Below, piece by piece: positions 4,219 to 8,398 of a stretch of 64,000 bases of DNA (position 1 is its first letter; each line of letters opens with the position of its first letter). A program made the translations under genes and the position numbers. The notes beneath the pieces were generated by a model. That model was not told where the DNA came from, ran no database searches, and was given only the letters and a program-made list of their open reading frames with translations. The DNA comes from Sphingorhabdus sp. 109 (GTDB taxonomy: Bacteria > Pseudomonadota > Alphaproteobacteria > Sphingomonadales > Sphingomonadaceae), in assembly GCF_902506555.1 (NCBI RefSeq), contig NZ_LR732707.1, forward strand, positions 1,078,001 to 1,142,000, written 5' to 3'.

Positions 4219-5253
4219 TCATCCAGACGGCTTTCCGTCCTTGCGCCATTTGATCCACAAATGCCGCGCCAGCATCAGTGGCGGCATTCGCAGCCAGTGG
4301 GATCGGATATAGAAGGCAAGGCGCGTCAATTTCCGGGTTTCGCGGCCATAACCGTCGCGCGCCAGCAAACGGCGGACATAGAAATTGTCGGTAAACGTCG
4401 CCTTGCCCGCCAGCGACGGAAGAACCGGCGTATCATATAGCGCCGCAGCAAGGCGCAGCGCCCTTGCCAGTTCGTCGGCCAGCCCGTGGAGACGGGCGCG
4501 CTCATCGAGCTCGGTCCAGAATGATGCTGAGGCTTCGGCCTTTTCCCGCAACAGGAGGTTGATGTCCCACAGATTCCGCAAGCCGCCGGCCAGATCACCA
4601 TCCGCAAACAGATGGGCGACGGAATGCAGCACCATGTCCGCCGGCGCCATCACATACAGGCCATCCGCGAGTGCTACGGCACTGGCGAGTATCTCTCCGG
4701 CATCCGGCGTAGGACCAGCGGTCAACGGCAATATTGTATGATGTACGTCGATCATCCGGTCCCGCTCGCGGTGGATCAGCGGCGGCAGTTCGTGCATATG
4801 CTCGCGATAATATTGGTCATCATAGGGATCCGGTTTAACCCATTCCCAGCCGGCATCGAGCAAGGCGTTTTCGACCACCGGCAAATCTTTCCGCTCCACC
4901 ATGATGTCGAGATCGCCTATGCTACGGCCCCGGCCAGCGGCGAGGTCGGCCGCGACATAGGCTGTCCCCTTCATCAGGACGATCTTGCCGGGATAGTCGG
5001 CGAGCGCCCGTCGCGCGCAATCGGCTTCCCACAAGGCCTGCAGTCGCGCCAGATCATGCGCCTCGACGGCATCTTGCAGAACCATGCGAATCCGATCCGG
5101 CACCTTCGCATGATCGATCCGGTGAGCCAGCGCGCCGATCAGCGATTCGGCCCGGGCCATGCTGATCAGGTCGGTCCACTCGCTGCCTCGAAGCATTTCC
5201 ACGCTGGCCGGGTTGCGCAGGGCATCGACCAGACGTCGGGCATCGCGCATCAT
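4219..5253 (-). CDS. Nucleotidyltransferase family protein of the HPr-rel-A type cassette
   Basis: A 344-residue protein with a pol-beta-like nucleotidyltransferase core: KGTAYVAADLAAGRGRSIGD followed by LDIMV gives the G-x-D-x-D metal-binding pattern of the NTP_transf_5-like family. The rest is mostly alpha-helical. Related enzymes occur in lasso-peptide and other RiPP clusters beside HprK-like kinases and PqqD-like chaperones, where the nucleotidyltransferase has been proposed or shown to modify a peptide. Here it is the last gene of such a set. It overlaps the kinase gene: the ATG at 5253 shares ATGA with the kinase stop and has a GGAG 9 bases upstream, whereas the longer frame would need a GTG at 5268. 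Substrate unknown. Confidence 0.8.
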   Translation of the reverse strand: MMRDARRLVDALRNPASVEMLRGSEWTDLISMARAESLIGALAHRIDHAKVPDRIRMVLQDAVEAHDLARLQALWEADCARRALADYPGKIVLMKGTAYVAADLAAGRGRSIGDLDIMVERKDLPVVENALLDAGWEWVKPDPYDDQYYREHMHELPPLIHRERDRMIDVHHTILPLTAGPTPDAGEILASAVALADGLYVMAPADMVLHSVAHLFADGDLAGGLRNLWDINLLLREKAEASASFWTELDERARLHGLADELARALRLAAALYDTPVLPSLAGKATFTDNFYVRRLLARDGYGRETRKLTRLAFYIRSHWLRMPPLMLARHLWIKWRKDGKPSG

Positions 5254-6119
5254 GGCAGTTTGCTCCACAATCCGTCGATCAGTTCTTCCGCCTGCTCAAT
5301 CGATTGATAATCCATGGCTCTGGCGGGAACCCGATCAACAAACCGGGTCAGTGCCCGAAATCCCGATTCTCCGAGCGCGACATAATTGGTTGAGGCCTGG
5401 GTCAGCCGGACGAAAATTTCGGCCTGGCCCATTTCGCGCAATTCGCGAGCGTGACCAAAGCGGGGAAAAAGCAACAGCGCCGGCGTGGCCGACTCCTCCA
5501 TTCGGGTAACGGCCTCCTGCGGCGGCACAAGATGGCGTATGTCGCCCTTGGGTGTGGCTTTCATTTCGGGGCCGAACCGGTCATCCGCTGCAAGATTCTG
5601 CATCGCCCCGATAGCCTGGTTTTTCAGGCTTATCAGGCGCGGAAAAGGCGAAATCTTTCCGTCGTCGAGGCCCAACAGTGCGAATTCGTCCCCCATGAAC
5701 CGCCAGCCCCGCTCGGCCAGCATCGCGGACAAGGTCGATTTCCCCGAGCCGGACAGGCCGGTCATGACCAGCGCTTTGCCGTCTTTCTTGACGCTGCTGG
5801 CATGGAGCAGCAGATGCCGCCGCCAGCCGAGCGCCATTTGCAGGTTCATGCCCATTTCGGCGGCAAGCAAACCCTGCGCCAGCGGCAACGGTGCGGCATC
5901 GGGCAGCCAGAAGTCACCGCCGATGTGGACGGACGGGCGGATGTGGCGGCGCCAGGGCTTGTCTGGCTCCAGCCGAACCGTGAAATCGACCTGCCCTTCG
6001 CCCGGTGCCGGATAGTGCCGATAGAGACCGGCCAGCTGATCCAGCGGTTGTCGCCATGCCGAAGCAATCCGGAAAGCTGCGGGACCGATTTTGAGCAGGA
6101 TATGATGCATCTTGCCCAT
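5250..6119 (-). CDS. HprK-related kinase A
   Basis: A 289-residue P-loop kinase resembling the catalytic half of HPr kinase/phosphorylase. The Walker A motif GLSGSGKST is at residues 121-129, preceded by LLLHASSV (His106) and followed by RGWRFMGDE (Asp144-Glu145), the acidic pair equivalent to the HprK base. The N-terminal HprK sensor domain is absent, and no PTS HPr gene is nearby, so a carbon-catabolite role is unlikely. In NCBI family naming this architecture is HprK-related kinase A, a protein of unknown function that travels with a PqqD-like partner. The start overlaps the PqqD stop by one base (TGATG) and the end overlaps the nucleotidyltransferase gene, implying coupled translation and a physical complex. 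Confidence 0.85.
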   Translation of the reverse strand: MGKMHHILLKIGPAAFRIASAWRQPLDQLAGLYRHYPAPGEGQVDFTVRLEPDKPWRRHIRPSVHIGGDFWLPDAAPLPLAQGLLAAEMGMNLQMALGWRRHLLLHASSVKKDGKALVMTGLSGSGKSTLSAMLAERGWRFMGDEFALLGLDDGKISPFPRLISLKNQAIGAMQNLAADDRFGPEMKATPKGDIRHLVPPQEAVTRMEESATPALLLFPRFGHARELREMGQAEIFVRLTQASTNYVALGESGFRALTRFVDRVPARAMDYQSIEQAEELIDGLWSKLP

Positions 6120-6403
6120 CAGCCGGGGACCCGGGACACGAGACCGAGCAATGACAGTTCTTCGAGGCGTGCCAGAATGATTTCTTCCGCATCTCCGCCG
6201 GATTCGATGTCGAATAGGGCGGTCAGCCGCGCAATAATCTCGGTTGCGGCAAGCGCAGCCTCTTCCATCACTTCGAATATGGCGGGGGCCGGATCGGCTA
6301 GAATATGGGTGATGCCGGACGGTCTGTGATACAGCAGTTTCATGCTGTCCAGGTCATGCCAGATCAGATCTTCTGCCGGCGCAGCCCGATATTTCTGGGT
6401 CAT
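6119..6403 (-). CDS. PqqD-like peptide chaperone (HPr-rel-A system)
   Basis: A 94-residue PqqD-fold protein. The segment WHDLDSMKLLYHRPSGITHIL followed by an acidic helical region and LEELSLLGLV matches the winged-helix recognition element (RRE) that binds leader peptides in RiPP pathways. It is coupled to the HprK-related kinase by a one-base stop/start overlap, so the two are made in fixed ratio. The known role of PqqD-like domains is to present a peptide to a modifying enzyme; by inference this one presents a substrate to the kinase or the nucleotidyltransferase. The obvious substrate candidate is the small Tat protein encoded 73 bases upstream. The family is recognisable; the function in this cassette is not established. 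Confidence 0.8.
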   Translation of the reverse strand: MTQKYRAAPAEDLIWHDLDSMKLLYHRPSGITHILADPAPAIFEVMEEAALAATEIIARLTALFDIESGGDAEEIILARLEELSLLGLVSRVPG

Positions 6404-6475
6404 GGAGAACTACCTGCGAATCTGGTGCGACATAACCGATTAATAGCAGGCAAAAGTTAAAATGGTGCGGATATA

Positions 6476-6934
6476 TCAGCGCGGCATTTGCAGCGAAGCA
6501 TAACAGGTGAAGCCGCTCTGCCCGGACTGCAGCCGGCGAATATATTTCACATAGGCCCGCGACTGGTCGTTGGATGTCCCGGGCAAGGTGCGGCCCCTCA
6601 TGGCGCGGCGTACTTCCTCGCCGGTGAAATTGCGACCGGCGGGCGGAAATGCTCCTGGCGTGTCTGCCGTGACCACTTTCCCGTTCGGCGCGATAAAACC
6701 GCCCGAAGCATGTTTGCCCGGCACTGGAATCTCGCAATTGAGAACGGAACCGGCGGTCTGCGCCAATGCAGGCTTGATGCTGACTACAGCTGAAGCCGTG
6801 ACTGCGCCCATCATCAGGGCGCGGCGACGGTTTACAATGCCGCAATTCTCGCCATTTGCGTCTGACGATTCAGATGGAAGGCCCTCTTTCATCGAATTTC
6901 TGTCCATTTTTCTTAGCTTCAGATAGGTGCACAT
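6476..6934 (-). CDS. Small Tat-exported protein, candidate substrate of the PqqD/HprK-like cassette
   Basis: I do not recognise the family. The 152-residue product has a polar 35-residue lead, then an RRRALMM twin-arginine motif (Arg36-38), a hydrophobic stretch and a probable cleavage site near PALAQ (residues 55-59). The mature part is about 93 residues with two cysteines (67 and 144), a Gly/Pro-rich middle (PVPGKHASGGF) and a C-terminal end QSGFTCYASLQMPR. The start is uncertain: Met1, Met10 and Met15 are all possible and none has a clear ribosome-binding site. It is on the same strand as, and 73 bases upstream of, the PqqD-like gene. The order exported small protein, chaperone, kinase, nucleotidyltransferase is that of a peptide-modification operon, but the link is inference from position. 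Confidence 0.65.
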   Translation of the reverse strand: MCTYLKLRKMDRNSMKEGLPSESSDANGENCGIVNRRRALMMGAVTASAVVSIKPALAQTAGSVLNCEIPVPGKHASGGFIAPNGKVVTADTPGAFPPAGRNFTGEEVRRAMRGRTLPGTSNDQSRAYVKYIRRLQSGQSGFTCYASLQMPR

Positions 6935-7126
6935 AAGCGGAAATCGATTGAAAGGCGAGCAATCAGTCCCTCGCTCGCAACCGCGTCCATATTCGGGACA
7001 TAGACATGCAAATCGTTAATATTGTCTCTATTTGCGAAAGCCGGTGCAGGCTCCCGAAACATTCCCGTTGCCGATGCGCCGGAGCACCGGCTAAACAGCG
7101 GCTATGACAATGCCAGAATCATTCCG

Positions 7127-8398
7127 ATGACTTCGGTTTCCCCTCTTCGTTTGCTGATCGCTCTGGCGATCATTGTCGGCGGTGGCATTCTTTCCGGTCA
7201 AATGCCACAATCCGGCCAGCAGTTCATCGTGGTCATTGTCTCGGGCACCTTCGCCCTGTTCATGGTTATGCAGGACCGGCCCGCCTCGCCAATGCCGGAT
7301 CCGGCAGCATTGGAACGACAGACCAAACGGATATTATATCAGGGGCGCTCGGAGGCCTATCAGGATATTATCGACCCGATAACAGATCCGATCATGCTGA
7401 TCCGCAATGCCAAGGTCGCCGCGGCCAACCCGGCCGCCGCCCAGGTCCTGGGCAATCATATCGTTGGCGAGGACGTGCGCATCGCCATCCGCCATCCCGC
7501 CGCTGCCGACCGTCTGGCAAATCCGGATGCCAAACATACCGGTGAGCCCATTTTGCTGGTCGGTGTCGGAAGCACGGACCAGAGATGGGAATTGCGCATC
7601 CACACGCTTCAGGACGGACTGAAGCTGGTCCAGCTTTCCGATCGGTCCAGTCGCTATGCCGCCGAAAGAATGCGGACCGATTTCGTCGCAAACGCCAGCC
7701 ACGAACTGCGCACACCACTGGCAGCCATCAAGGGGTTTATCGAAACGCTTGAGGACCCCACGGCCGGCAAGGACGATGCAACCCGCGCCCGCTTTCTGAA
7801 AATCATGTATGACGAAGCCGACCGGATGCAGCGTCTGATCGAGGACCTGATGTCGCTCTCCAGGATCGAGGCAGAGAAATTCGAGCTGCCTTCAGACGTG
7901 ATAGATCTGAGCGAATTGGTCGAGGAAGCGCGTGATTTCTACATCAACAGCCGTGGCAAGAAAGAAAGTGAAATACTGGTTCATTTTCCAACTGTTATGC
8001 CAATGATCCACGGAGACCGGGCGCAATTGTCGCAGGTCGTCAACAATCTGCTGAGCAACGCATTCAAATACGGAAGAAAAGGGGCACCGGTCACGATCAA
8101 GGTCGCGCCCAATAAATCGGGCACGATGCTTTATCTGTCGATCAGTGATCAGGGCGACGGCATAGCACCGGAACATATCCCCCGGCTCACCGAACGTTTT
8201 TACCGTGTCGACAAGGGACGCAGCAAGTCGATTGGCGGTACCGGACTGGGGCTCGCAATCGTAAAACATATTTCGGAACGCCATGGGGGAAGGATGGAAA
8301 TCAGCAGTGAGGTAGGCCGCGGTACAACGGTATCGGTATTGCTGCCGGTCGCCAGCAAAAGTCCGGGAGCCGTTTTGCTGGCACAAGGCAGTGATTGA
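7127..8398 (+). CDS. phoR: Phosphate regulon sensor histidine kinase
   Basis: A 423-residue membrane histidine kinase. Two hydrophobic segments follow the start (LRLLIALAIIVGGGILSG and FIVVIVSGTFALFMV), then a PAS-like region, then the HisKA phosphoacceptor FVANASHELRTPLAAIKGF (His192) and the HATPase domain with an N box (NNLLSNAFKYG), G1 (DQGDGI) and G2 (GGTGLGLAIVKHI). Paired with PhoB and placed directly before pstS, it is PhoR, which reads PstSCAB-PhoU activity rather than phosphate itself. The frame is open from a TTG at 7022, but the ATG at 7127 lies immediately before the first membrane segment and is more likely. Transcription is divergent from the Tat-protein cassette. Confidence 0.95.
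   Translation: MTSVSPLRLLIALAIIVGGGILSGQMPQSGQQFIVVIVSGTFALFMVMQDRPASPMPDPAALERQTKRILYQGRSEAYQDIIDPITDPIMLIRNAKVAAANPAAAQVLGNHIVGEDVRIAIRHPAAADRLANPDAKHTGEPILLVGVGSTDQRWELRIHTLQDGLKLVQLSDRSSRYAAERMRTDFVANASHELRTPLAAIKGFIETLEDPTAGKDDATRARFLKIMYDEADRMQRLIEDLMSLSRIEAEKFELPSDVIDLSELVEEARDFYINSRGKKESEILVHFPTVMPMIHGDRAQLSQVVNNLLSNAFKYGRKGAPVTIKVAPNKSGTMLYLSISDQGDGIAPEHIPRLTERFYRVDKGRSKSIGGTGLGLAIVKHISERHGGRMEISSEVGRGTTVSVLLPVASKSPGAVLLAQGSD

Follow-up and report, generated by a model that had tools for sequence, protein, structure and literature searches.

A small Tat-type protein as the probable substrate of the HPr-rel-A enzyme set in Sphingomonadales and other Pseudomonadota

Phosphorylation of peptide serines by HprK-like kinases provides the closest described counterpart of the locus considered here, a four-gene cassette in Sphingorhabdus sp. 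109 (Alphaproteobacteria, Sphingomonadales, Sphingomonadaceae). The cassette lies in a stretch of 64,000 nucleotides (assembly GCF_902506555.1, contig NZ_LR732707.1, positions 1,078,001 to 1,142,000 of the forward strand), referred to below as the window and numbered from its first base. PadeK and PsmK are reported to phosphorylate lasso precursors at a C-terminal serine; for PsmN, annotated as a nucleotidyltransferase, addition of one or two hexoses to the phospho-serine of pseudomycoidin is described, a nucleotide step not being excluded (PMC9266682). In the linear polyphosphorylated peptides (LPPs) of Bacillota (Popov et al. 2026, PMC13381572), LppK puts several phosphates on one serine, and not on threonine there; the loci encode a RiPP recognition element (RRE) protein, a kinase, a nucleoside triphosphate (NTP) transferase, an SpI-like peptidase, and an MsbA-like exporter, and they often lie in capsule loci. 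Addition of several phosphates has been reported for lasso and LPP kinases alike (PMC9266682, PMC13381572). The preliminary description of this DNA had pointed to lasso-type tailoring enzymes, a lead to which these reports of related kinases and a nucleotidyltransferase acting on peptide serines lend weight. At NCBI, the kinase and PqqD-like families of the cassette are named HPr-rel-A, without a substrate; no paper on this system or its families, on PqqD or HprK proteins together with exosortase, or on RREs in connection with twin-arginine translocation (Tat) was found in an open-licence library. In this work, a small Tat-type protein is proposed as the substrate.

The cassette comprises four genes, all on the minus strand within 4219..6934, and its arrangement at this place is confirmed. 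It encodes a small exported protein of 143 residues (6476..6907), the proposed substrate, followed by a PqqD-like peptide-binding (RRE-type) protein (6119..6403), an HprK-related kinase A (5250..6119), and a nucleotidyltransferase (4219..5253; ATG start, with an upstream GTG at 5268 also open). A gap of 72 bases separates the small gene from the PqqD-like gene, and the last three genes overlap as first described, by 1 base at the PqqD-like/kinase junction (TGATG) and by 4 bases at the kinase/nucleotidyltransferase junction (ATGATG). Taken together, the comparisons reported below make it fairly probable that the cassette produces a modified secreted protein, with the small protein being acted upon by the other three and exported through Tat.

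By its families, the cassette corresponds to the LPP trio of a discrete RRE-type protein, an HprK-like kinase, and an NTP transferase with no cyclase, the RRE fold and the equation of LppN with PF14907 being putative here; LPP loci often lie among polysaccharide genes (PMC13381572), as do many HPr-rel-A loci. Unlike the LPP loci of Bacillota, the cassette belongs to Pseudomonadota, has a Tat signal where those loci have an SpI-like peptidase and an MsbA-like exporter (none within ~4 kb), and has its conserved site near the C-terminus, whereas that of LPPs is at S3 of the core (PMC13381572). With the paeninodin and pseudomycoidin systems it would share a kinase acting at a C-terminal serine and, if PsmN is the model, a second enzyme adding hexoses to the phospho-serine (PMC9266682). 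In contrast to these systems, no macrolactam cyclase or B2 protease lies by the cassette (within ~4 kb), the candidate serine is the sixth residue from the end, and the mature substrate would be a protein of ~90 residues. The earlier statement that a cyclase, protease, or ABC exporter of lasso type is lacking holds for the neighbours within ~4 kb.

The pairing of the small Tat gene with the kinase is strongly supported. The order was represented by 296 genomes, 213 of them from the window's family; the kinase was identified by family search and the small protein by a profile of 30 proteins, and genomes absent from the positive listings were scored as negative. The kinase was present above the cut-off in 126 of the 296 genomes, and the small-protein profile matched 73. 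Within the family, 70 genomes had both the small Tat gene and the kinase, 143 had neither, and none had one alone (Fisher p 5e-58, a value that ignores kinship). The small-protein match was weak in three of the 70 (G053, 1.1e-7; G262, 4.5e-6; G287, 9.7e-8), and the neighbourhoods of these (L207, L194, and L213) agree with the assignment. The preliminary description had asked whether the small Tat gene accompanies the trio across sphingomonads; in these 213 genomes it did, with none carrying the kinase and lacking the small gene.

Small gene and kinase lie far apart in 13 of the 70 genomes, 12 from one genus together with G053. G053 has kept its small and PqqD-like genes together, with kinase and nucleotidyltransferase elsewhere; in the genus, the trio adjoins glmU in the three loci read. 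Both parts were thus kept after their separation, which favours a functional tie. Relatives of the small protein were also collected as 143 stretches in the named genome collection, of which the best 80 were kept as loci. Downstream of the small gene, these had the PqqD-like gene in 78, the kinase in 77, and the nucleotidyltransferase in 77, the exceptions (L040, L085, and L102) being at contig ends.

The pairing was followed further at 100 additional kinase loci, 60 from the order (two of them, L117 and L194, from the window's own family) and 40 from other classes of the phylum; the kinases of L130 and L186 fall just under the TIGR04352 cut-off (187.8 and 197.7 of 200 bits). Outside the order, a kinase above the cut-off was detected in 48 of 376 genomes, and 40 of the 48 neighbourhoods were read. 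Because small proteins of different families are beyond alignment by profiles, the wider pairing was judged from gene position, signal, and motif, in part by eye. A strict rule, requiring a twin arginine with a hydrophobic stretch and the motif [ST]CxxS near the C-terminus in a protein encoded upstream of the kinase, selected a protein at 57 of the 100 loci versus only one of 2744 open reading frames (ORFs) elsewhere in them. When the proteins missed by this rule were sorted, partly by eye, a small Tat-type protein was found upstream of the kinase in 93 loci, including L194, where the contig stops within the small gene, ahead of the signal. The motif itself occurred in 83 of these 93 proteins (58 of the 60 loci in the order and 25 of the 40 outside it). 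PqqD-family profiles matched upstream of the kinase in 88 of the 93 loci with a small protein (all but L151-L154 and L216) and in none of the seven without one. It follows that the small protein and its presumed carrier were lost together, which favours the small protein as substrate.

A quick kinase tree (n=61) separated the kinases of the order from the rest (Shimodaira-Hasegawa-like approximate likelihood ratio test, SH-aLRT, 99), and the C-terminal motif occurs on both sides of this deep split. Ten partner proteins are Tat-type proteins of another make-up; in five of these (L137, L138, L145, L151, and L152), a C-x-x-S-G stretch close to the mature N-terminus takes the place of the C-terminal motif. 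Nine of the ten corresponding kinases form one clade (SH-aLRT 95), indicating that the type of partner follows the kinase clade; the tenth, L149, falls outside it, and L154 is a long branch. A gene for an HtrA-like serine protease was observed near seven of the 40 loci outside the order (L135, L137, L138, L145, L148, L152, and L154), all with this second partner type, and also at three of the 60 loci of the order.

The small protein probably starts at the ATG at 6907, as its close relatives have the common start MDRNS; the ORF is open from 6934. Searches of Pfam and NCBIfam gave no match to the protein at E<=1, so the assignment of its Tat signal rests on the motif and on relatives. In alignment with those relatives, the signal reads RRRALMMGAVTASAVVSIKPALAQ (6758..6829), with a twin arginine, a hydrophobic stretch, and a basic c-region in which a lysine stands ahead of the cleavage site. 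A basic residue at this place is a mark of Tat signals. The comparison set contained 183 small proteins, 90 from the 100 further loci (187 less four wrong ORF calls at L117, L208, L228, and L146); two arginines followed by a hydrophobic residue were present in 180 of them, and an AxA site was found in 138, 97 of which had Arg or Lys ahead of it. TatC is present in the window's genome. At the other end, T-C-Y-A-S (6494..6508) represents the [ST]CxxS motif, whose Cys and Ser are invariant in 30 of 30 aligned rows; we propose this Ser (codon 6496-6494) as the acceptor of the phosphate. The structure model is weak (mean predicted local distance difference test, pLDDT, 60.6), and in it the [ST]CxxS tail is predicted at low confidence, with no structure assigned to it; a loose tail as predicted by this weak model might suit a recognition tail gripped by enzymes.

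Across loci, the small proteins are otherwise hardly alike, and the middle part of some contains Asp, Ser, or Gly-Asn runs. Long Asp- or Ser-rich runs lie between conserved signal and conserved tail in L121, L128, L130, L131, and L134, where they are perhaps metal-binding or disordered spacers. Two small Tat-type genes per cassette were observed in L118, L172, and L182, the L118 pair flanking the PqqD-like gene. In L043 (~6001-6438), the small ORF called by script stops early at AYVN while the DNA match continues, which points to a broken gene or to an error of sequencing in a metagenome assembly. In an annotated relative, Sphingomonas parapaucimobilis NZ_CP155749.1, the small protein is labelled 'hypothetical protein' within the order pst genes, ATP-binding protein (in the place of the sensor kinase), 'hypothetical protein', HPr-rel-A PqqD protein, HprK-related kinase A, nucleotidyltransferase, HAD hydrolase, glmU, and glmS.

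The PqqD-like protein (TIGR04353, 54.9 bits, cut-off 35) and the kinase (TIGR04352, 243.4 bits, cut-off 200) both pass the curated NCBI thresholds for HPr-rel-A, which bears out the name first given to them. For the former, a weak profile match to the lasso RRE TfuB1 was obtained (E 0.003), behind two designed proteins. The kinase model (pLDDT 96) has the PEPCK/HprK fold, and its profile matches 1jb1 over the P-loop region (E 6e-4). Of the P-loop noted at the outset, GLSGSGKST (5733..5759), residues G124, G126, K127, and T129 are invariant in 30 aligned kinases, as are H106 and the acidic pair D144-E145 (5685..5690), which was likewise noted. The kinase thus resembles HprK in its P-loop region and related fold. 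It is unlike a true HPr kinase in that TIGR00679, with a cut-off of 240 bits, scores it at only 14.9, and the genome's HPr gene (C2:767558) stands beside a different HprK-like gene (C2:769393). The preliminary description had stated that there is no HPr partner: the genome does hold an HPr gene, and what stands of the claim is that this gene adjoins another HprK-like gene. For both reasons, HPr is an unlikely target of the cassette's kinase.

In the same genome, two other HprK-like genes lie by genes that read by eye as sulfotransferase-like (L239, 7752-9828; L241, 1620-3379), one of these loci also having a small PqqD-like gene, and they are possibly further peptide-modifying clusters. A second PF14907 nucleotidyltransferase (L238, 5865-6956; 112.9 bits) lies by a gene that appears to be ABC-transporter-like.

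We infer a sequence of events modelled on the lasso and LPP systems. The PqqD-like protein would hold the small precursor in the cytoplasm and present it to the HprK-related kinase, which would phosphorylate a conserved serine; the serine of the C-terminal [ST]CxxS tail is the likeliest acceptor. To this phosphate the PF14907 enzyme might then add either one or two hexoses, as PsmN is reported to do on pseudomycoidin, or a nucleotide, and the Tat pathway would export the finished protein after these steps, perhaps to function at the cell surface or in connection with exopolysaccharide.

Several observations weigh against this reading. The genome counts share ancestry and are not phylogenetically independent. 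The C-terminal motif is missing from ten partner proteins among the 93, all of them outside the order (10 of 40) and of the other make-up described above. At seven of the 100 further loci no small protein was found: L191 and L222 are contig ends, the partner of L117 is elsewhere, and L146, L221, L228, and L233 have HprK_rel_A kinases with neither a small protein nor a PqqD-like gene nearby, these kinases being perhaps leftovers or having partners elsewhere in the genome. The Tat signal model (hidden Markov model TIGR01409) gave no match to the window protein at E<=1 and scored two of ten relatives, at 13.3 and 14.7 bits, below its cut-off of 16.7. In addition, cassette proteins lack the [YW]xxP leader motif of LPPs: the form bound by lasso and LPP RREs, [YW]xxPx[LVIAFY], occurred in one of 183 small proteins, compared with a mean of 24.05 in shuffled sequences. 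Recognition by the PqqD-like protein must therefore differ from the LPP scheme, and the earlier pointer to leader-peptide binding fails as far as this known motif is concerned. The nucleotidyltransferase raises difficulties as well. It exceeds the cut-off of PF14907 (165.8 bits, cut-off 31.2), and both Asp of its G-D-L-D (4906..4917), which we take to be catalytic from the motif noted earlier and from family knowledge, are invariant in 25 aligned sequences. The family is uncharacterised and matches solved structures weakly (best E 0.29). Downstream of the kinase it was found in 89 of the 100 further loci and missed in 11, five of which have <400 bases left before the contig end.

These difficulties bear on the first alternative, in which the small protein is indeed the substrate but the product is a plain phosphoprotein or polyphosphoprotein, the nucleotidyltransferase acting as a regulator, on the kinase, or on another molecule. 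Lasso and LPP kinases add several phosphates, and deletion of LppN was without effect in the LPP test system (PMC9266682, PMC13381572). The MenT family, weak kin of PF14907 through a profile match to Rv1045 (E 0.53), consists of nucleotidyltransferases reported to act on tRNA, and the nucleotidyltransferase was missed in six of the 100 loci despite at least 1.7 kb read downstream. On the other hand, its place by the kinase in 89 of 100 and 77 of 80 loci favours a role in the same pathway, and the phosphate of pseudomycoidin does receive a sugar (PMC9266682). We regard this alternative as unlikely, though it fares best among those considered.

Polysaccharide genes are frequent near the cassette in other lineages. 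In a survey with marker thresholds chosen for this analysis, XrtA/PEP-CTERM exopolysaccharide genes occurred within the stretch read at 30 of the 40 kinase loci outside the order and nine of the 60 in it; none was detected within the stretch read at the 80 named loci or the 20 further family loci. Representatives exceeded the NCBI cut-offs of the deacetylase TIGR03006, the glycosyltransferases TIGR03087 and TIGR03088, FemAB TIGR03019, the amidotransferase TIGR03108, PrsK, PrsR, and PrsT. A glycosyltransferase gene separates the small and PqqD-like genes in 17 of the 80 named loci, and at L085 one more follows the small gene where the contig ends; the one scanned, at L060, best matched TIGR03088 (78.8 bits, cut-off 409). 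In the window's genome, genes that read by eye as an XrtA-type cluster lie ~320 kb from the cassette, with an exosortase at C2:755002. The exosortase PF09721 was present in 70 of 70 kinase genomes versus 100 of 143 without the kinase in the window's family, in 50 of 56 versus 13 of 27 in the rest of the order, and in 19 of 48 versus 39 of 328 outside it. An obligate partnership with exosortase is ruled out by the 19 of 48, and any tie would at most be to polysaccharide genes.

In a second alternative, the target of the kinase would be a small metabolite, or a sugar destined for exopolysaccharide, and the small exported protein would belong to the same regulon as an independent component of the surface. 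A metabolite kinase would sit poorly with the retention of a PqqD-type peptide binder exactly where the small protein is, with the 70/0/0/143 pattern, which includes the unlinked pairs, or with the invariant C-terminal tail and the correspondence of partner type to kinase clade, and we consider it improbable.

The surroundings of the cassette in the order suggest a third alternative, in which the small protein has the divergent PhoR/Pst phosphate system as its partner; it could, for instance, be a sensor ligand linked to phosphate, its modification reporting phosphate status. Within ~4 kb, the cassette has as neighbours glmS, glmU, two small genes without an NCBIfam match, a PhoR-like sensor kinase, and a PstS-like protein. 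The PhoR-like kinase (7022..8398, plus strand), divergent from the small gene, has its best match in TIGR02966 (295.8 bits, below the cut-off of 334.2). A gene of this kind is divergent from the small gene in 72 of the 80 named loci and, where coordinates were available, in 45 of 53 other loci of the order (five of the 16 without it have <500 bases upstream). Most loci of the order retain it, also where the trio has moved away, as at 12 of 12 loci of the genus in which the small gene is parted from the trio. But phoR was found at none of 21 loci outside the order, and no enrichment of a Pho box was detected in 73 stretches between small gene and phoR (mean best 9.1/14 versus 8.9 in shuffles); the divergent PhoR may represent inherited gene order only. 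A phosphate-sensing role is accordingly held to be quite doubtful. The two small genes, adjoining each other between glmS and glmU (2031-2636; no NCBIfam match at E<=1e-10), resemble a PIN-type toxin and its antitoxin.

Finally, operon hitch-hiking by descent or transfer, with no functional tie between small protein and enzymes, would suit the largely conserved gene neighbourhood in the order but is very improbable, as in 13 of 70 genomes the two genes, though apart, have both been kept and the pairing recurs in other classes past the deep kinase split.

Under the favoured reading of the small protein as a modified, Tat-exported substrate, a more specific possibility can be considered, in which a sugar is built on the CxxS phospho-serine in the cytoplasm and the folded exported phosphoglycoprotein serves as an exopolysaccharide primer, anchor, or organiser. 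This proposal is speculative and, as a whole, distinctly improbable; if true, it would give Gram-negative bacteria a polysaccharide route primed or anchored by a protein. What is new here is a probable substrate for HPr-rel-A, and with it a concrete, conserved, and testable candidate for a widespread unexplained enzyme set. As both the LPPs of Bacillota and many HPr-rel-A loci occur among polysaccharide genes, a common cell-surface role becomes testable in laboratory strains that are easy to handle. The small protein as substrate would extend RRE-guided serine phosphorylation from the linear peptides of Bacillota and from lasso peptides to Tat-exported proteins of Gram-negative bacteria.

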